A stretch of DNA of 56,521 nt from Desulfarculus sp. (GTDB lineage: Bacteria; Desulfobacterota; Desulfarculia; Desulfarculales; Desulfarculaceae). A model generated the notes under the pieces. That model ran no database searches. It was not told the DNA's origin and worked only from the letters and a program-made list of their open reading frames with translations. Positions 38,655 to 47,708 of this stretch are shown here, in pieces. The translations under genes were made by a program, and so were the position numbers. Positions within the stretch are counted from its first letter, which is position 1, and the number at the start of each line of letters is the position of its first letter. The stretch covers positions 1 to 56,521 of the forward strand of contig QZKP01000059.1 of assembly GCA_003605055.1 (NCBI GenBank), written 5' to 3'.

Positions 38655-39170
38655 ATGAGCGCCAAACCCGCCGAGGACCTCTCCTCCAACCTGGAGGACT
38701 ACCTGGAGGCCATATACCGCCTGGAGAAAACCAGCCGGGTGGCCCGGGCCAAGGACATCGCCGACCGCCTGGAGGTGTCCCGGGCCTCGGTCTCCGGCGC
38801 GCTCAAGGCCCTGGCCGACAAGGGCCTGATCAACTACGAGCCCTACTCCTACGTGACCCTGACCAAGCAGGGCCAGGACATCGCCCGGGGCATAGACCGC
38901 CGGCACCGCATCCTGCGCGACTTCCTGCAGCGCATCCTGCAGATGGAGCCCCAGGCCGCCGACGACAACGCCTGCCGCATGGAGCACGGCATGGACGCCC
39001 AGGCCCTGGAGCGCCTGGTGCGCTTTCTGGAGTTTCTGCGCGAGTGCCCGCGGGTGGGCGAGGACTGGCTGGCGGCCTTCAACCAGTACTGCCAGGGCGG
39101 CCTGGACCCCAAGCGCTGCAAGCCCTGCCTGAAGAACGCAGGCCAGGGCCAGCCCGCGCCGCTGGACTGA
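38655..39170 (+). CDS. DtxR/IdeR-type metal-dependent regulator
   Basis: 171 residues, ATG with GGGGGAG 7 nt upstream. The winged helix (EDYLEAIYRL; AKDIADRLEVSRASVSGALKALADKGLI) is followed by the metal-dimerisation domain. His84, Cys107, Glu110 and His111 have the same relative spacing as His79, Cys102, Glu105 and His106 of DtxR, pointing to an iron-type rather than MntR-type site. It lacks the C-terminal SH3-like domain and ends with a Cys-containing tail (CQGGLDPKRCKPCLKN). It is divergent from the LbtU-like porin, a plausible target. Confidence 0.88.
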   Translation: MSAKPAEDLSSNLEDYLEAIYRLEKTSRVARAKDIADRLEVSRASVSGALKALADKGLINYEPYSYVTLTKQGQDIARGIDRRHRILRDFLQRILQMEPQAADDNACRMEHGMDAQALERLVRFLEFLRECPRVGEDWLAAFNQYCQGGLDPKRCKPCLKNAGQGQPAPLD

Positions 39171-39226
39171 GCCCGGCCATCGCCGGGCGCTGAAGATTAG
39201 TAGAGACGACGAAATTTATTGGGGGG

Positions 39227-39370
39227 CTTATGCCGACCCGTATAACCCGACATAAGAAAACGCCGATGCGGAGATAAGCCATTAAAATTATTTGGTTTAA
39301 CTAGATAATGGAACAATTTACAGAGGCGTCTTATACGGACAGAAACGAACAACTCCGCATCTTATGCGGA
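39227..39370. repeat. cluster of CTTATGCSGA-like repeats (recombinase-site-like)
   Basis: Related 9-11 bp motifs occur in both orientations: CTTATGCCGAC (39227-39237), CTTATGTCG on the minus strand (39248-39256), GATGCGGAG (39265-39273), CTTATACGGAC (39330-39340) and CTCCGCATCTTATGCGG (39353-39369). GATGCGGAG and CTCCGCATC are a perfect 9-bp inverted pair 79 bp apart. The block sits exactly where GC content falls, just before the integron-like cassette, and resembles the ends or core sites of a tyrosine-recombinase element. Confidence 0.55.
39282..39309 (+). promoter_or_regulatory. weak candidate promoter reading into the cassette
   Basis: TTAAAA (39282-39287), 16 bp, GATAAT (39304-39309). 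It would transcribe the SIR2 cassette. Confidence 0.3.
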
Positions 39371-39384
39371 TACATCTAATTATT

Positions 39385-39391
39385 GTTAGCA
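39385..39391 (+). other. 5' core recombination site of an integron cassette (GTTAGCA)
   Basis: GTTAGCA is the exact reverse complement of the R'' core TGCTAAC of the attC at the other end of the SIR2 gene. It is preceded by CTAA-N5, giving CTAATTATTGTTAG, which resembles the simple site of attI1 (CTAA-N6-GTTAG). The cassette would run from 39386 to 40558. Confidence 0.7.
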
Positions 39392-39415
39392 GTACAAGCA
39401 TCGAGGAGGCACATG

Positions 39416-40492
39416 ATGATTAATACAGCAATTTTTCTAGGGGCAGGAGCTTCAAAAGCTGAAGGTGCTCCTCTTCAGGGTGAACTTTTCCGAGATTATT
39501 TCTCGTCCAATCATTTCAGAAGCAGCAACGATTCAATGGATAGGGAGTTGGCAACTTTCTTTATGCTAATGTTTGGTATCGATGTAGACAATGGTGATAT
39601 TTTGAATACTAATTTCCCAACATTTGAAGAGGTCTTAGGGCTGACAGACCTTGCAATTCTACGTAAGGAGTCATTTCGAAATTTTGACATCGAGAATAGA
39701 GCGACAAATAGTGGCCGTTTACGGTTCATCGCTCAATATTTGGTTTTTCTGGTGGCAAAGGTACTAGATTCAAAATTGCAGCTTAGCAAGAATATACATG
39801 GAAAGCTTGTTCGTAACCTAAAAAATGCGGACGCTTTGAAGAACGTGACTTTCATTTCTACCAACTATGACATCCTCATCGATAATGTTTTAACTGAACT
39901 CTATAACGAAAACATCGACTTAGATTACGGTATAGAATTCCGCAATTTCGAGCGGCATGGCGATTGGAAACGACCTCGCCGGGAATTTCAAGTAAGTCTA
40001 TTTAAGCCCCATGGTTCTTTGAATTGGCTTTTCTGCCCAACATGCAATGAACTCGAAATAACACCGAAGGAAAAAGGCGTTGTTACTCGTTTAATATCAG
40101 ATTTTACACAGGCATCATGCCCTGAATGTCAAAGTATTTATATGCCGTTAATCGTACCTCCAACTTTTTACAAAGATTTAAACAATGCTTTTTTGAGTTC
40201 AATATGGAATCAAACAGATAAGGCCCTCCGTAAGGTAGATCATATCGTATTTTGTGGCTATTCTTTTCCTGATGCTGATATACACATAAAATATTTGCTT
40301 AAAAGAGCTCAAACTAATAGGAATAATAGGAATACTCTGAAATTTACAGTCATAAATAATTTCAAAGAAAAACTTCCTATGGTTCGCGATGAAGAGGAAT
40401 ATAGGTATAAACGTTTTCTGGGACCTGCTGTAAATTATTCGTCGTTGTCCTTTGAGCAGTTTGCCGATAATCCTATGGCTGTAATTCGATAA
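39416..40492 (+). CDS. SIR2-domain protein carried on an integron cassette
   Basis: 358 residues; the second of two adjacent ATGs has AGGAGG 6 nt upstream. The SIR2-like NAD-binding fold shows INTAIFLGAGASKAEGAP (2-18), FISTNYDILIDN (about 146-157), KPHGSLNW, a CPTC...CPEC zinc knuckle, and VFCGYSFPDADIHI. The gene is AT-rich, unlike its roughly 70% GC surroundings. Stand-alone SIR2 proteins of this kind are common in anti-phage islands, where they deplete NAD+ or act with partners. No partner gene is in the same cassette. Defence is a reasonable inference, not shown. Confidence 0.88.
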   Translation: MINTAIFLGAGASKAEGAPLQGELFRDYFSSNHFRSSNDSMDRELATFFMLMFGIDVDNGDILNTNFPTFEEVLGLTDLAILRKESFRNFDIENRATNSGRLRFIAQYLVFLVAKVLDSKLQLSKNIHGKLVRNLKNADALKNVTFISTNYDILIDNVLTELYNENIDLDYGIEFRNFERHGDWKRPRREFQVSLFKPHGSLNWLFCPTCNELEITPKEKGVVTRLISDFTQASCPECQSIYMPLIVPPTFYKDLNNAFLSSIWNQTDKALRKVDHIVFCGYSFPDADIHIKYLLKRAQTNRNNRNTLKFTVINNFKEKLPMVRDEEEYRYKRFLGPAVNYSSLSFEQFADNPMAVIR

Positions 40493-40497
40493 AGTTC

Positions 40498-40564
40498 TGC
40501 TAACCAGCGCCTGTACGCGGACGCGCGAAAGCCCGCCGCGCGCCGGTAAGGCGCAACGTTGGGC
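40498..40564 (+). other. attC: integron attC site (67 bp)
   Basis: R'' TGCTAAC (40498-40504), L'' GCGCC (40507-40511), central stem CGG-A-CGCGC (40518-40526) pairing with GCGCG-CCG (40538-40545) and leaving A40521 extrahelical, an 11-nt loop, L' GGCGC (40550-40554), and R' GTTGGGC (40558-40564), which fits GTTRRRY. The layout (R''-L''-stem with extrahelical base-L'-R') is the folded attC structure recognised by IntI. Confidence 0.8.
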
Positions 40565-40629
40565 TTGTATATGAGCCAAGCTATCGCATCAGGCTTTGAT
40601 TGCCAACACACGCAACACAGGAAAACGTA

Positions 40630-41370
40630 ATGATTCCCGATAAGACTGAGCCGCGCATTTCCCGGATAAATAGCCTCATTACGATACTCACCGCCTCCCT
40701 TATTTTCGTACTGGTCGTCATTGTAATCAACATGATCAGCAAGATGCTGTTTGGAACAATTATGGCCTCTGGGATAAGAGCGAGGGTAACGGTTGAATTG
40801 ACTGGTGCGATGCTCAGCGAAATCGTTGTCCTTGTTTTGCTTGTGTTTTATCTCAAGCGCCGGGGCATGGGGCTTCGACAGATCGGACTGTGGGCTTCCT
40901 CTCCGGCGCGCGGCTGGATTGCGGCCGCCATAGTAGCGGGCCTCTTCATGTGGTTCAATCTGGCGCTTCCCCTGAGGAACGAGCAAAACCTTGGGGAGGT
41001 GAGTCTGTTCCATATCTACAACGCGCTTACGGCAGGTGTGATCGCCGGTTTTGTGGAGGAAATTTTTTTTCGTGGCTTCTTCATGACCCAACTGGCTTGG
41101 GCTGGCTTTGGAAAGGTAGCGCAGGTAACCATTTCGGCGATTTTGTATGGACTGGTTCATTCCGCTTGGGGCCTCACTTCGGGAATGTTCACTATGCAGA
41201 TGATCGGAGGCGCCGTAATCGGTACTGCCGTATTCGGGGTATTTTCTTCGATTGTGTATTTGGTCAGTCGGCGGAGCTTGATGCCTGTCATTATCGGCCA
41301 TGCAGCCATTGACATAGTCATTGAGCCTTGGTTGTTCGTGGTTGCCATAACCATGGCTCAAGCACATTGA
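40630..41370 (+). CDS. CPBP-family intramembrane metalloprotease
   Basis: 246 residues from an ATG after AGGAAAA. It has about eight hydrophobic helices. The CAAX-protease/bacteriocin-processing motifs are intact: EEIFFRGFF (EExxxR, near 143-151), ILYGLVHSAWG with the motif 2 His, and IIGHAAID (motif 3). Members cleave membrane substrates or give self-immunity to bacteriocins. GC content is between the SIR2 gene and the chromosome. It starts 66 bp after the attC R' core, the usual spacing in a cassette, but I see no attC after its stop, so it may be a cassette that lost its 3' end. Confidence 0.87.
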   Translation: MIPDKTEPRISRINSLITILTASLIFVLVVIVINMISKMLFGTIMASGIRARVTVELTGAMLSEIVVLVLLVFYLKRRGMGLRQIGLWASSPARGWIAAAIVAGLFMWFNLALPLRNEQNLGEVSLFHIYNALTAGVIAGFVEEIFFRGFFMTQLAWAGFGKVAQVTISAILYGLVHSAWGLTSGMFTMQMIGGAVIGTAVFGVFSSIVYLVSRRSLMPVIIGHAAIDIVIEPWLFVVAITMAQAH

Positions 41371-41406
41371 GGACGAAACAGGCAACAAGGCAACCCGCCC
41401 CGCGGC

Positions 41407-42582
41407 CTAGAACACCGGGGTGGGCACGGTGCCCCAGCCGGTGACCCGGGGCAGGTCCCGCACGCTCAGCACCTGCAATTCGTGCACGTTCAGGTCCAGC
41501 ATGAAGACCGGAATCCGGCGCGCGCTGATGGCAAACAGGCCATAGGGCACGGCCCCCGCGTCATCGATCTCCAAAAAAACCAGTCTGCGCACCACCCCCG
41601 GCTGGCCCCCGGCCATGCTATGCAAGGCCCCGGGCAGGGCGTGGTGCCCCTGGCTCAGGTGCCGGAAGGGGTGGAATATCCAGTCGGTGATCATGGACAG
41701 CGCGTGGTGCTGCTTGTATAGCCGCCACTGGCCGCCGGTGTCGGCGATGAGGCCCTGCATGATGTAGTTGGCCGGCAAAAAGTAGACCAGATAGGTCTTG
41801 CCCTTAGCCAGCCTGGCCTTGACCGGGGCCAGGTCCAGCACGCCGGGCATCCGGTGCTGCATGATGGGCAGGTCCCCGGAGGTTATGGCCAAGGCAGCGA
41901 CGTTGCCCGCTGACCAGAGGTCCAGGTGCCTGATGGTGTAGTAGCGCAGGGCAAAGGCCCCGCCTATGGCGATGACGGCGATCAAGACGGCCCCCAGGAC
42001 CTTCCCCCAGATGCCGGCGGGCAGGATGTATCTTTCAATGGCCCGGGGCAGGAACATCCCGGTTTTTTGCATGTATTGCCTGTATTGCTCCGGGTAGTCC
42101 TTTAGCATCCGCCTTTCCTCGTCCTTGGCCAGGAGCAGGTACAGCAGCACCATGACCACCCAGAGCGCCACCACCAAGAATCGCGGCCAGAGGATGAACA
42201 GGCCCACGCCGGCCACGGCCAGGCCCAGGTACTGCGGGTGCCGGATCACCGAGTAGAGCCCCTTCAGGGCCGCGCCCTTTTTAAAGAACTTATTGAAGTA
42301 CACCTGGAAGGCGCAGACGAAGAACACGGCCAGGCCCAAGAGGAACAACACCGACCCCGCCACCCGGATGACCTTCAGAAAGGCATCCGGCGGCACCACC
42401 ATGTGGGGCAGGAAGAAGGCGCTGAGCCATCTGGTAGCGGGATATTTGGCTATGGCCAACAAAACCGGGTTGAAGGCCGAATAAAAAAAGCCCGCGAAGG
42501 GGCTTATCATGATTAATATTTCCAACCCGATTATAAAGTACAGGATGATTGCGCTATTGAGAACGGCCTTGCCCCTGTTCAT
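41407..42582 (-). CDS. isoprenylcysteine-carboxylmethyltransferase-like membrane protein
   Basis: 391 residues. The N-terminal half has several membrane helices and the ICMT/PEMT signature GLYSVIRHPQYLGLAVAGVG followed by EERRMLKDYPEQYRQYMQKTGMFLP, which binds S-adenosylmethionine and a lipid-type substrate. After another helix (VLGAVLIAVIAIGGAFALRYY) there is an extra ~170-residue soluble domain not typical of the family (DLAPVKARLAKGKTYLVYFLP; FMLDLNVHELQVLSV). The added domain and the substrate are unknown. GC content is moderate. It is convergent with the CPBP gene. Confidence 0.75.
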   Translation of the reverse strand: MNRGKAVLNSAIILYFIIGLEILIMISPFAGFFYSAFNPVLLAIAKYPATRWLSAFFLPHMVVPPDAFLKVIRVAGSVLFLLGLAVFFVCAFQVYFNKFFKKGAALKGLYSVIRHPQYLGLAVAGVGLFILWPRFLVVALWVVMVLLYLLLAKDEERRMLKDYPEQYRQYMQKTGMFLPRAIERYILPAGIWGKVLGAVLIAVIAIGGAFALRYYTIRHLDLWSAGNVAALAITSGDLPIMQHRMPGVLDLAPVKARLAKGKTYLVYFLPANYIMQGLIADTGGQWRLYKQHHALSMITDWIFHPFRHLSQGHHALPGALHSMAGGQPGVVRRLVFLEIDDAGAVPYGLFAISARRIPVFMLDLNVHELQVLSVRDLPRVTGWGTVPTPVF

Positions 42583-45663: not shown

Positions 45664-46899
45664 TCACAGCCAGCTAGCCGACACATCAAACTCAATTAAC
45701 TCTTTTTTTGAGTTGCGTTTGCGAATAGGTCTAACCTCGATGTTGTTGAACCCAATTTCATCCAATATTTGCGCATAGATCAGTTCCACCGGTAATAGCT
45801 CACCGTAAAAAGTAGAGTTTCCTACAATGTAGTGAATTGACGCACCAGATGCGAGGATAGTCCGAAGTTCAGCGAGGTGTTCATATATATCATTAACGTA
45901 TTTTCTAATGTAGTTGGCAAGTAGCTTTCCGTTGGCGTTACACGGGCTAGAGATACTATCAAGCGTTCTCTCTAATCTTTCCGAATTGCAACGATTCCTC
46001 GCGGGCTTCCATTTATTTAGACGGCTAGTCGCAATTCCCCATGTTCCACCGATAGCAAGCCAATCTAATTCGCCTGCATCTTGCGGTTTCTGGAGGAAGC
46101 CCAGCCAGTACATATATGGACGCAACTCGCGAATATATGACATTCTATTTGCATATGGAGGTGAAGTAATAACGAGACCAAATGGCTCTAACTTTAATCT
46201 CGAAAGCAGTCGTGCGTCATGAAGAATAGTTTCCACCTCCCCGGTGGGATTCTGGAGGGCCCCTCTGAGGACAAATTCTAGATTATCTCTAAAGATTTCT
46301 TTAAATTCATATTGGATGCCGAGTGTGAGCTGAGAGCTGTTTTTAAAAGACATCGATTGGTGGTTGAATGCTGCATTAGAGCAAGCGATCAACGTGCGGC
46401 AGAACGCGACGCACAAAAGTGTCCCTTCTTGAGTCTGAAAGGGCATCGTACACTCTATCGCGGCCCGGAGATCACCAAGAAAGGCAAGAGCGTCGGCATG
46501 CCACCATCGCTCTATATTATGTATTGGGGGTACTTGGGCCGGGTCGATTTCCCCTGCGCCAACTAAGGCTAGCGCATCCTCACATGCTTTTCGGGTTCTT
46601 GAAACAGTAGCGTATGAATAGCGTGCTGTCTTCGCTCGGGCTAGCCAAACTAAGAAAGGATTTATATCTGTCGTCGCTGCGTCATGTCCGTGATAGGCGG
46701 CGCTAAGAGCAGTAGTTGCTGTTCCGCAGAATGGATCAAATACGCGCACTTTACTGCTGGCCTGCTTCATTATTTCTTCGACTAATCGTAGTGAATATGC
46801 CGGAGTGAGGCGAAGCCAGCCGTGCCGTCCCGTCTTAAGGTTGTAGCTGTGGGTGTAGTCGGCGCGTTGCCGGAGTTGGTCGTGAGCAGGCTGTGTCAC
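45664..46899 (-). CDS. DNA methyltransferase (TSPPY type) of a type II restriction-modification system
   Basis: 411 residues from a GTG that overlaps the upstream gene stop (GTGA). The SAM-binding motif I VFDPFCGTATTALSA (53-67) precedes the catalytic motif IV VITSPPYANRMSYIRELRPY near residues 242-262. TSPPY is typical of N4-cytosine and some N6-adenine methyltransferases. Motif order I then IV with about 185 residues between them suggests an alpha-like arrangement with an inserted recognition domain. GC content and codon use are far lower than in the flanks, indicating horizontal gain. It protects host DNA from the coupled nuclease. Confidence 0.87.
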   Translation of the reverse strand: MTQPAHDQLRQRADYTHSYNLKTGRHGWLRLTPAYSLRLVEEIMKQASSKVRVFDPFCGTATTALSAAYHGHDAATTDINPFLVWLARAKTARYSYATVSRTRKACEDALALVGAGEIDPAQVPPIHNIERWWHADALAFLGDLRAAIECTMPFQTQEGTLLCVAFCRTLIACSNAAFNHQSMSFKNSSQLTLGIQYEFKEIFRDNLEFVLRGALQNPTGEVETILHDARLLSRLKLEPFGLVITSPPYANRMSYIRELRPYMYWLGFLQKPQDAGELDWLAIGGTWGIATSRLNKWKPARNRCNSERLERTLDSISSPCNANGKLLANYIRKYVNDIYEHLAELRTILASGASIHYIVGNSTFYGELLPVELIYAQILDEIGFNNIEVRPIRKRNSKKELIEFDVSASWL

Positions 46900-47708
46900 G
46901 TGGCCTCCGGTGTTAGCAGCGAGCGAAGAATAAGATCGATCTCGTTGCGAAGGGTTTCTTTGTTCCGTTCGAAAAAAGCGGCAAGATTGTAGCCGATGAT
47001 ATCGCGCGTGAAATCGTAGGTTGAGCGAAGAGGATTATTCAAGCCAACAAGGCCGGTGAGTACTGACCACTTTTCGGCGCGATAACGAGCCAGGATATCC
47101 GAGTCGATCTGAGCAGAAAGGATAACAGCGCAGGGGAGGTAGCCCTTTATGTATGCAGTAGCGGCGTTGGAGATATCCGCATTTTGTCGCTTCGAGTCTT
47201 TACTTTTGTAGCCCTGGCGGACTTCGAAGATGGTTCCTGTAATCGCAGAGAAGACATTGTTATCTACCCCGACTTCCGCCGCTGATGCTTTCATCCAGTC
47301 ATGAAATCGTTTTCGGGCATGGATGCTCGGAATATCTGTAAGTGACACCCGCCCATCAAGGTGGAGCTTGCGTTTCTTACCGTTTGTGCCGACCACTTCA
47401 TATGACCAAGTGACTGCTTCTGCAGAAAGTTCAAGGCTATCTTGTAATATAACTCTGAATAGGCGCTCACAACCAATTCCAATCTGACGATAGACGCTCG
47501 TCATTCCACCGGCGGCCTTGTGTGCGGCATACATTAGAGGGTTATCAAGACCAAGCCAGCTATAAAATGAGTCTTTCTGGTATAGTGATTGGAACTGTTC
47601 AAGAGTCAACCCTCCCCGCTGACCTTGCCCGAATTTGGGCCTATAATTGGCGCAGACACGGACCGGGCCCAAAATGATTTCCAGGTATTTGGCGTCATTC
47701 TCTTCCAA
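46896..47708 (-). CDS. probable type II restriction endonuclease
   Basis: 270 residues from a TTG with AAGGAG about 9 nt upstream. It has no close motif outside a PD-(D/E)xK-like core: HLDGR (116-120) supplies a candidate Asp and FEVRQGYKSKDSK (161-173) a candidate Glu-x-x-x...Lys set. The assignment rests mostly on its translational coupling to the methyltransferase and its matching low GC. It might belong to the ApaLI-like endonuclease group, but I cannot confirm that. The recognition site is unknown. Confidence 0.68.
   Translation of the reverse strand: MEENDAKYLEIILGPVRVCANYRPKFGQGQRGGLTLEQFQSLYQKDSFYSWLGLDNPLMYAAHKAAGGMTSVYRQIGIGCERLFRVILQDSLELSAEAVTWSYEVVGTNGKKRKLHLDGRVSLTDIPSIHARKRFHDWMKASAAEVGVDNNVFSAITGTIFEVRQGYKSKDSKRQNADISNAATAYIKGYLPCAVILSAQIDSDILARYRAEKWSVLTGLVGLNNPLRSTYDFTRDIIGYNLAAFFERNKETLRNEIDLILRSLLTPEAT

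Follow-up and report, generated by a model that had tools for sequence, protein, structure and literature searches.

Why does a gene for a SIR2-domain protein, low in GC and followed by what looks like an integron recombination site, stand between two host genes with no integron integrase beside it? The locus lies on contig QZKP01000059.1 of Desulfarculus sp. (assembly GCA_003605055.1), of which positions 1-56,521 were analysed. This whole stretch of 56,521 bases is called the window below; it is one (C17) of the 78 contigs of the 3.6 Mb host genome (G000). The original prediction had proposed a lone SIR2 cassette of an integron in a host with no integrase in view.

Results

The SIR2 gene is an integron cassette

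The GC content is 0.385 at 39601-40200, against about 0.70 around it, so the GC drop described earlier is borne out. The boundaries of the unit are also as claimed: the core GTTAGCA at 39385-39391 and TGCTAAC at 40498-40504 are exact reverse complements, and the attC that begins with the latter (R'') closes with GTTGGGC (R') at 40564. This gives a site of 67 bp (40498..40564, plus strand) and a cassette that measures 1,173 bp from one crossover point to the other (39386..40558, plus strand), which agrees with the coordinates of the original prediction.

A covariance-model search, which had been proposed as a check, was performed with a model (R1) built from 14 of 23 attC sites from outside the window; eight longer sites and one of 74 bases were excluded, and the structure was written by hand. 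With the search filters off and the window's own attC kept out of the model, 40498-40564 scores 45.9 bits (E 2.3e-8), while the next best match in the 56,521 bases scores 13.0 bits. Together, the exact cores, the closing attC and this independent model confirm the SIR2 gene as a genuine integron cassette. The folding energy of the hairpin alone is unremarkable and not decisive: -21.2 kcal/mol for the bottom strand, z -1.42, with 17 of 200 shuffles as stable. Rfam at gathering thresholds has no match anywhere in the window.

The cassette is not alone. Directly after the GTTGGGC that ends the attC, a probable cassette 2 begins at 40559; it carries an ORF (40630..41370, plus strand) for a CAAX-protease-like (Rce1-like/CPBP) membrane protein (PF02517, 56.1 bits). 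A closing attC for this cassette, with the expected R'' GCCCAAC and a hairpin, was not found; by eye there is a possible, uncertain stump of one, AGGCAACAAGGC (AGGCAAC AAGGC), at 41380..41391 on the plus strand, just before the host gene at 41407.

The left neighbour (38655..39170, plus strand) is a host gene for an iron-dependent (DtxR-type) repressor (Pfam PF02742 75.5 bits, PF01325 62.7 bits). It is present at 63-75% identity in all five same-genus genomes searched, and beside it in these five there is no cassette DNA and no SIR2 or CPBP match. To the right lies a host gene for a phospholipid/isoprenylcysteine methyltransferase-like protein (41407..42582, minus strand; PF04191 28.1 bits, cut-off 25), which is 75% identical in the same-genus genome G007; DNA similarity ends at 41408. 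An empty-site comparison of the locus gave no match, as the surroundings of the repressor gene are unmatched in congeners and the methyltransferase-like gene adjoins different DNA in G007. Further along the window, at 45664-47708 on the minus strand, there is a second low-GC island, with a type II methyltransferase (PADLOC, 77 bits) beside a type II restriction enzyme (PADLOC, E 5.5e-84).

An attI site precedes the cassette

The stretch directly upstream of the SIR2 cassette is an attI site (39227..39391, plus strand), with its crossover at G/TTAGCA. It is 91% identical to a site on contig C96 of genome G031, and 88% to sites on the host contig C26 and on contig C71 of G021. By eye, four repeats of the type TTATRCGGAYC can be seen on the plus strand: two in an imperfect palindrome at 39228-39245, and the others at 39331-39339 and 39362-39371. 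The palindrome adjoins the place where, again by eye, the stop codon of the integrase gene (intI) stands in relatives. The crossover ATTATTG/TTA and the four repeats form a predicted integrase-binding layout.

With a recognisable attI upstream, the SIR2 gene occupies the first position (cassette 1) of an integron platform and has not been left behind at some random place; the original prediction was right about the cassette and missed this setting.

A second site of this type is found on host contig C39, which carries the last third of a second integron integrase. There, about 170 bp separate the intI stub from a cassette on the same strand; this cassette runs from GTTAGGC to an attC with R'' GCCTAAC. 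The window from 39227 to the crossover aligns with the attI stretch of C39 with a score of 118, while 300 shuffles never exceed 42. The C39 locus also adjoins an ORF (L009:1602-2144, minus strand) whose product, by eye, looks like a minor head protein of a phage.

A DNA search of 98 genomes, the host among them, with 39227-39391 as query matched 9 places in 5 genomes. Upstream of several of the nine there are 3' remnants of intI; on C96 of G031 the last 34 codons of intI stand directly upstream of attI. In relatives this type of site lies between intI, complete at 5 and a remnant at 25 of 114 loci, and the first cassette. Judged by its sequence, the window's attI is that of integrons whose intI is transcribed towards the array.

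These 165 bp bear on the idea that a circular SIR2 cassette was put by a trans-acting integrase into a secondary (attG-like) site, where no platform ever stood. Such insertion is known for IntI1 (PMC12901181, PMC12444791), and the host genome does hold an intact intI. A random secondary site would not, however, match attI sites that elsewhere have intI stubs or complete intI upstream; once the attI was recognised, this explanation was rejected, and we regard it as very improbable.

If the attI is real, the attC at the end of the first cassette should have an R'' exactly complementary to the crossover core. Such closure, with exact R'' and a hairpin, is seen at 14 of 33 attI loci; random cores, drawn 40 times, gave a mean of 0.175 and at most 1. 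In an enlarged set 34 of 114 loci pass, while 20 draws average 1.05 and never exceed 3. With a looser test that allowed one mismatch and 6 kb the contrast was weaker: 18 of 34 loci passed, and six draws gave 6 to 9. Many of the 80 loci out of 114 that fail the closure test were read only about 1.5 kb downstream, and some of them may be decayed. A chance origin of hairpin and matching cores, without any integron, might be suspected from the folding energy, which falls within the shuffles, but the core test against its null and the attC model (45.9 bits, next 13.0) rule it out, and the homology of the attI speaks against it as well; we consider its probability negligible.

No intI in the window, one in the genome

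No intI match was found upstream of the window's attI, and the locus is in this respect not a complete integron. The homology of the site to the attI profile begins at profile position 121 of 286. The junction where intI would be expected (39171..39226, no strand assigned) is the place at which locus L019 carries the last 34 codons of intI.

That no integrase is in view holds for the window only, since host contig C63 encodes an intact, full-length integron integrase (491.5 bits against TIGR02249, cut-off 265). Its frame at L001:1153-2448 extends about 100 codons upstream, outside the integrase match; the start of this upstream part presumably resembles a three-Cys-motif partner protein. On the whole host genome model R1 found four attC sites, one each on C26, C39, C17 (the window) and C63, with 150 of 4599 first-look candidates scored and with the C26 and C39 sites, but not those of the window or C63, in its training set.

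The attI of C63 itself shows no alignment to the window's attI above shuffles (score 26, against 39 in shuffles). The same is true in general of the 29 nearest relatives of the C63 integrase for which loci could be retrieved (L062-L090, with intI complete or almost complete): none has a convincing attI of the window's type. With best scores of 25-34, all but four of these loci fail to exceed the best of 20 shuffles; the four do so by 1-3 points, and an attI could be hidden where a contig stops shortly after intI. The C63 integrase might still act in trans on the attI and attC of the window.

The attI type is spread over several phyla

The exact attI core pattern TTATGCGGATNNATCTAATTATTGTTA occurs in 14 stretches among 84,980 species genomes. 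The matches are assigned to Deltaproteobacteria, Proteobacteria, Nitrospirae, Bacteroidetes, Hydrogenedentota, Syntrophobacteraceae, Syntrophales, Chlorobium ferrooxidans DSM 13031, a planctomycete, Desulfobacteraceae, Chlorobiaceae and Sumerlaeota; 13 of the 14 are metagenome bins, in which single taxon assignments may be wrong, while Chlorobium ferrooxidans DSM 13031 is not a bin. No exact match to the core pattern was found in viral_contigs.

When up to three mismatches are allowed, the phylum of the host has 17 matches in 13 of 395 genomes, and the phylum of the Bacteroidetes bin G443 has 138 matches in 55 of 395 genomes, with up to eight in one genome. The reversed control pattern gave 0 of 395 in both cases. 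From the 138 matches 83 were examined, 15 of which were known before. The resulting pool contains 114 loci from 58 genomes (46 first loci, then 28 and 40 further ones); L102 (G022), with no match to the attI profile, was left out of it. The profile, itself built from the first 46, matches 113 of the 114.

Two arrangements within this family deserve mention on their own. At L210 (contig C11 of G567) and at L196/L197 (contig C31 of G521) two attI copies lie on the same strand, about 1.4 kb and 2.3 kb apart, so that arrays may in some cases have more than one attI. At L032/L130 in Chlorobium ferrooxidans there is a mini-attI, in which the last codons of intI are fused almost directly to the last ~28 bp of attI; it looks as if recombination between TTATGC repeats took out the middle.

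Seventeen first cassettes were found in the first 47 loci, and ten besides SIR2 were compared with Pfam. They encode a GmrSD-type restriction protein (host contig C26), a PemK/MazF-like toxin, a TIR-like protein just below the cut-off, a DUF6988 protein, two DUF2283 proteins, a T5orf172-like protein and a UPF0489 protein; the cassettes of L019 and of host contig C39 gave no match. Defence-type genes are thus present among first cassettes.

intI has been deleted in place at comparable loci

Beside 84 of the 114 attI loci there is no intI at all. Since some contigs end near attI (for example L033 and L171), a few of these 84 could hide more. The five complete copies are at L206, L217, L225, L227 and L232, in five different genomes. 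They overturn the statement that no complete intI goes with this attI, which was true of the first 46 loci and of 28 more.

How intI disappears can be seen where related loci are aligned. In L151, the DNA before intI (358-432 in the coordinates of L225, which has a complete intI) is joined straight to the 3' part of intI and attI (L225 1188-1628), with about 755 bp missing relative to L225. In L215, likewise, the parts that correspond to L225 360-460 and 1115-1627 are joined, with about 655 bp missing. An upstream flank is common to L151, L208, L215 and L232, of which L232 has a complete intI. Further, L031 and L144 keep both ends of intI with an internal deletion between them. As read from these alignments, intI is deleted in place at comparable loci of one other phylum. 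Random truncation from the 5' side, as retrotransposition would produce it, had been considered from the continuum of left ends; it was set aside because of the internal deletions and the shared upstream flanks.

L144 (Bacteroidetes bin, contig C4 of G443) is also of interest in itself: by its attI stands an in-frame integrase that misses about 85 residues of the N-terminal part and keeps the catalytic domain. This could be either decay or a shortened enzyme.

The material can also be read differently, namely that attI and cassette move together as a unit without integrase, in which case intI never stood at the window's spot. Three attI loci of the window's type exist in the host genome and none in its seven congeners, a genome can hold up to eight pattern matches, and the left ends of the attI homology vary continuously among loci. 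In addition, attI copies are more alike within genomes (median identity 0.69, 69 pairs) than between them (0.61, 2346 pairs), which leaves room for multiplication within a genome. However, of 42 attI copies only 5 have their nearest relative within the genome they come from, an argument against recent multiplication of this kind. Moreover, comparison of the flanks of 47 loci revealed no common carrier: what they match is intI stubs, attC-like stretches and three short unexplained pieces (L119/L126, 165 bp at 70%; L147/L153; L151/L152). When the in-place deletions at other loci are added, a moving unit without integrase seems rather improbable to us.

Around the orphan attI of host contig C26, the two neighbouring genes stand side by side, with no cassette between them, in all five congeners whose fetched loci span both; the borders of the insertion are unreadable, because the intergenic DNA has diverged too much.

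The SIR2 protein

The gene of cassette 1 (39413..40492, plus strand), which has an AGGAGG-like ribosome site just 5' of it (by eye), encodes a protein of 359 aa (P0001) with a match to PF13289 (SIR2_2; 36.6 bits, cut-off 24.5). Among the PADLOC models the SIR2 models are best (PDLC04087, 4.6e-14), and the protein also matches a solved SIR2-like protein (PDB 8w9l_A, E 1.7e-4). It contains the motifs GAGAS (10), STNYD (149) and HGS (200), and the latter two align with 8w9l_A; we take the Asn of STNYD and the His of HGS to be the catalytic residues.

The closest relative found, in 60 genomes searched of which 5 had a match, is 47% identical and comes from G020, a relative at the order level. No attC was found within 1.5 kb on either side of the G020 gene; the gene therefore also lives outside cassettes. 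In agreement with the cassette reading, a homologue, 27% identical, on a Vibrio plasmid is a cassette of an array, with attC model matches on both sides. Relatives in phages were not found, and peptide patterns had no match in viral_contigs or genome_contigs.

From its family, P0001 is likely an NAD+-consuming defence protein. An ordinary sirtuin-like deacylase, or another metabolic enzyme, is the less likely reading. In its favour, the protein has a CPTC/CPEC pair at 208 and 236, which by eye is kept as CPTC/CDDC in the G020 homologue and resembles the zinc ribbon of sirtuins. Further, the anti-phage SIR2 equivalog of NCBIfam (NF042942) gives P0001 only 21 bits, far from its cut-off of 500. 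On the other hand, the best Pfam family is SIR2_2, the best PADLOC models are defence models, and another orphan attI cassette of the same genome encodes the GmrSD-type restriction protein. Weighing these, we think a metabolic role unlikely.

Discussion

In our view the window most probably contains a decayed integron, of the kind with intI pointing towards attI: the attI, the SIR2 gene as cassette 1 and the probable cassette 2 remain, while intI has been deleted. A complete integron would have stood at the locus, with intI at 39171-39226, and would have captured the SIR2 cassette at its attI. Loss of intI by deletion would then have fixed the array with its useful cassette. Selection against a costly integrase, together with selection for a useful cassette, could be expected to give such an outcome. 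The SIR2 protein would be the useful part, as an NAD+-consuming anti-phage effector, read from its own ribosome site and presumably from a promoter in or near attI; a promoter scan of 39100-41450 gave 3 promoter-like sites, against a shuffle mean of 3.9.

The window holds no remnant of intI, and no clean empty or complete version of its exact locus was found in the genomes compared, so the argument for deletion at the window itself rests on loci of another phylum. Three orphan attI loci in the host, with no match in seven congeners, would also need three gains and three losses.

One intact integrase may, alternatively, serve several chromosomal attI sites, each with its own first cassette and its own expression context. 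The loss of neighbouring intI would then be tolerated and the attI sites would stay in use. G666, G767, G495, G533 and G655 have 8, 8, 6, 3 and 3 attI matches, and one complete intI each among the 8, 8, 6, 3 and 2 examined. The host similarly has a single intact intI besides three more attI loci, but the attI of C63 is unlike that of the window. We hold this arrangement to be quite improbable.

Several parts of this picture are already known: the available texts describe arrays with attC and no neighbouring intI (CALINs), pseudogenes and deletions of intI, loss of the integrase, and defence cassettes. CALINs have been proposed to be degraded integrons (PMC9024848). With an attC and no intI beside it the window is such an array, yet unlike the CALINs of that description it keeps an attI, with one recognised attC. 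IntegronFinder 2 calls CALINs by default from at least two attC and detects attI for class 1 only (PMC9024848); loci such as the window's, with a single recognised attC, would therefore be passed over.

In Treponema-type integrons intI is transcribed towards attI, and T. phagedenis has lost intI with attC left behind (PMC3607928). The window's type shares with them an intI, attI and cassettes on one strand. The Treponema work, as far as its available text goes, is based on attC with remnants in one species (PMC3607928), whereas here an attI family is followed over several phyla. In a survey from 2008 nearly a third of intI genes were pseudogenes (PMC2426708), and large deletions are described in Xanthomonas (PMC12444791). 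Compared with these, a complete intI is present at only 5 of the 114 loci examined here.

Pieces of attI away from intI are known from the delta-attI-type gene cassettes of class 1 and 2 integrons, in which, as described, they replace attC downstream of the gene (PMC12901181); the attI of the window lies upstream of the first cassette. Single anti-phage cassettes are on record for sedentary and mobile integrons (PMC12409362), and defence cassettes in integrons were reported in 2025 by Darracq, Kieffer and Getz, as cited in PMC12409362 and PMC12444791. SIR2 has 0 occurrences in the available text of the review of defence cassettes (PMC12409362), and the platform of the window differs further in having no intI.

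What looks new is the family of orphan attI sites across phyla, with up to eight pattern matches per genome. A non-exhaustive literature search found no attI family traced without its integrase over phyla, nor, in the papers listed, the phrases "orphan attI" and "attI remnant".

Tests of where integrase-less arrays come from have been difficult, since descriptions of attI sites other than those of class 1 are poor (PMC9024848, in its available text). An attI that outlives its integrase separates two origins: arrays with attI come from the loss of intI, and arrays without it possibly from insertion at secondary sites. The attI family described here is a sequence tag for relics without intI, and suggests that single-cassette relics, some of them with defence-type genes, are missed by present tools.
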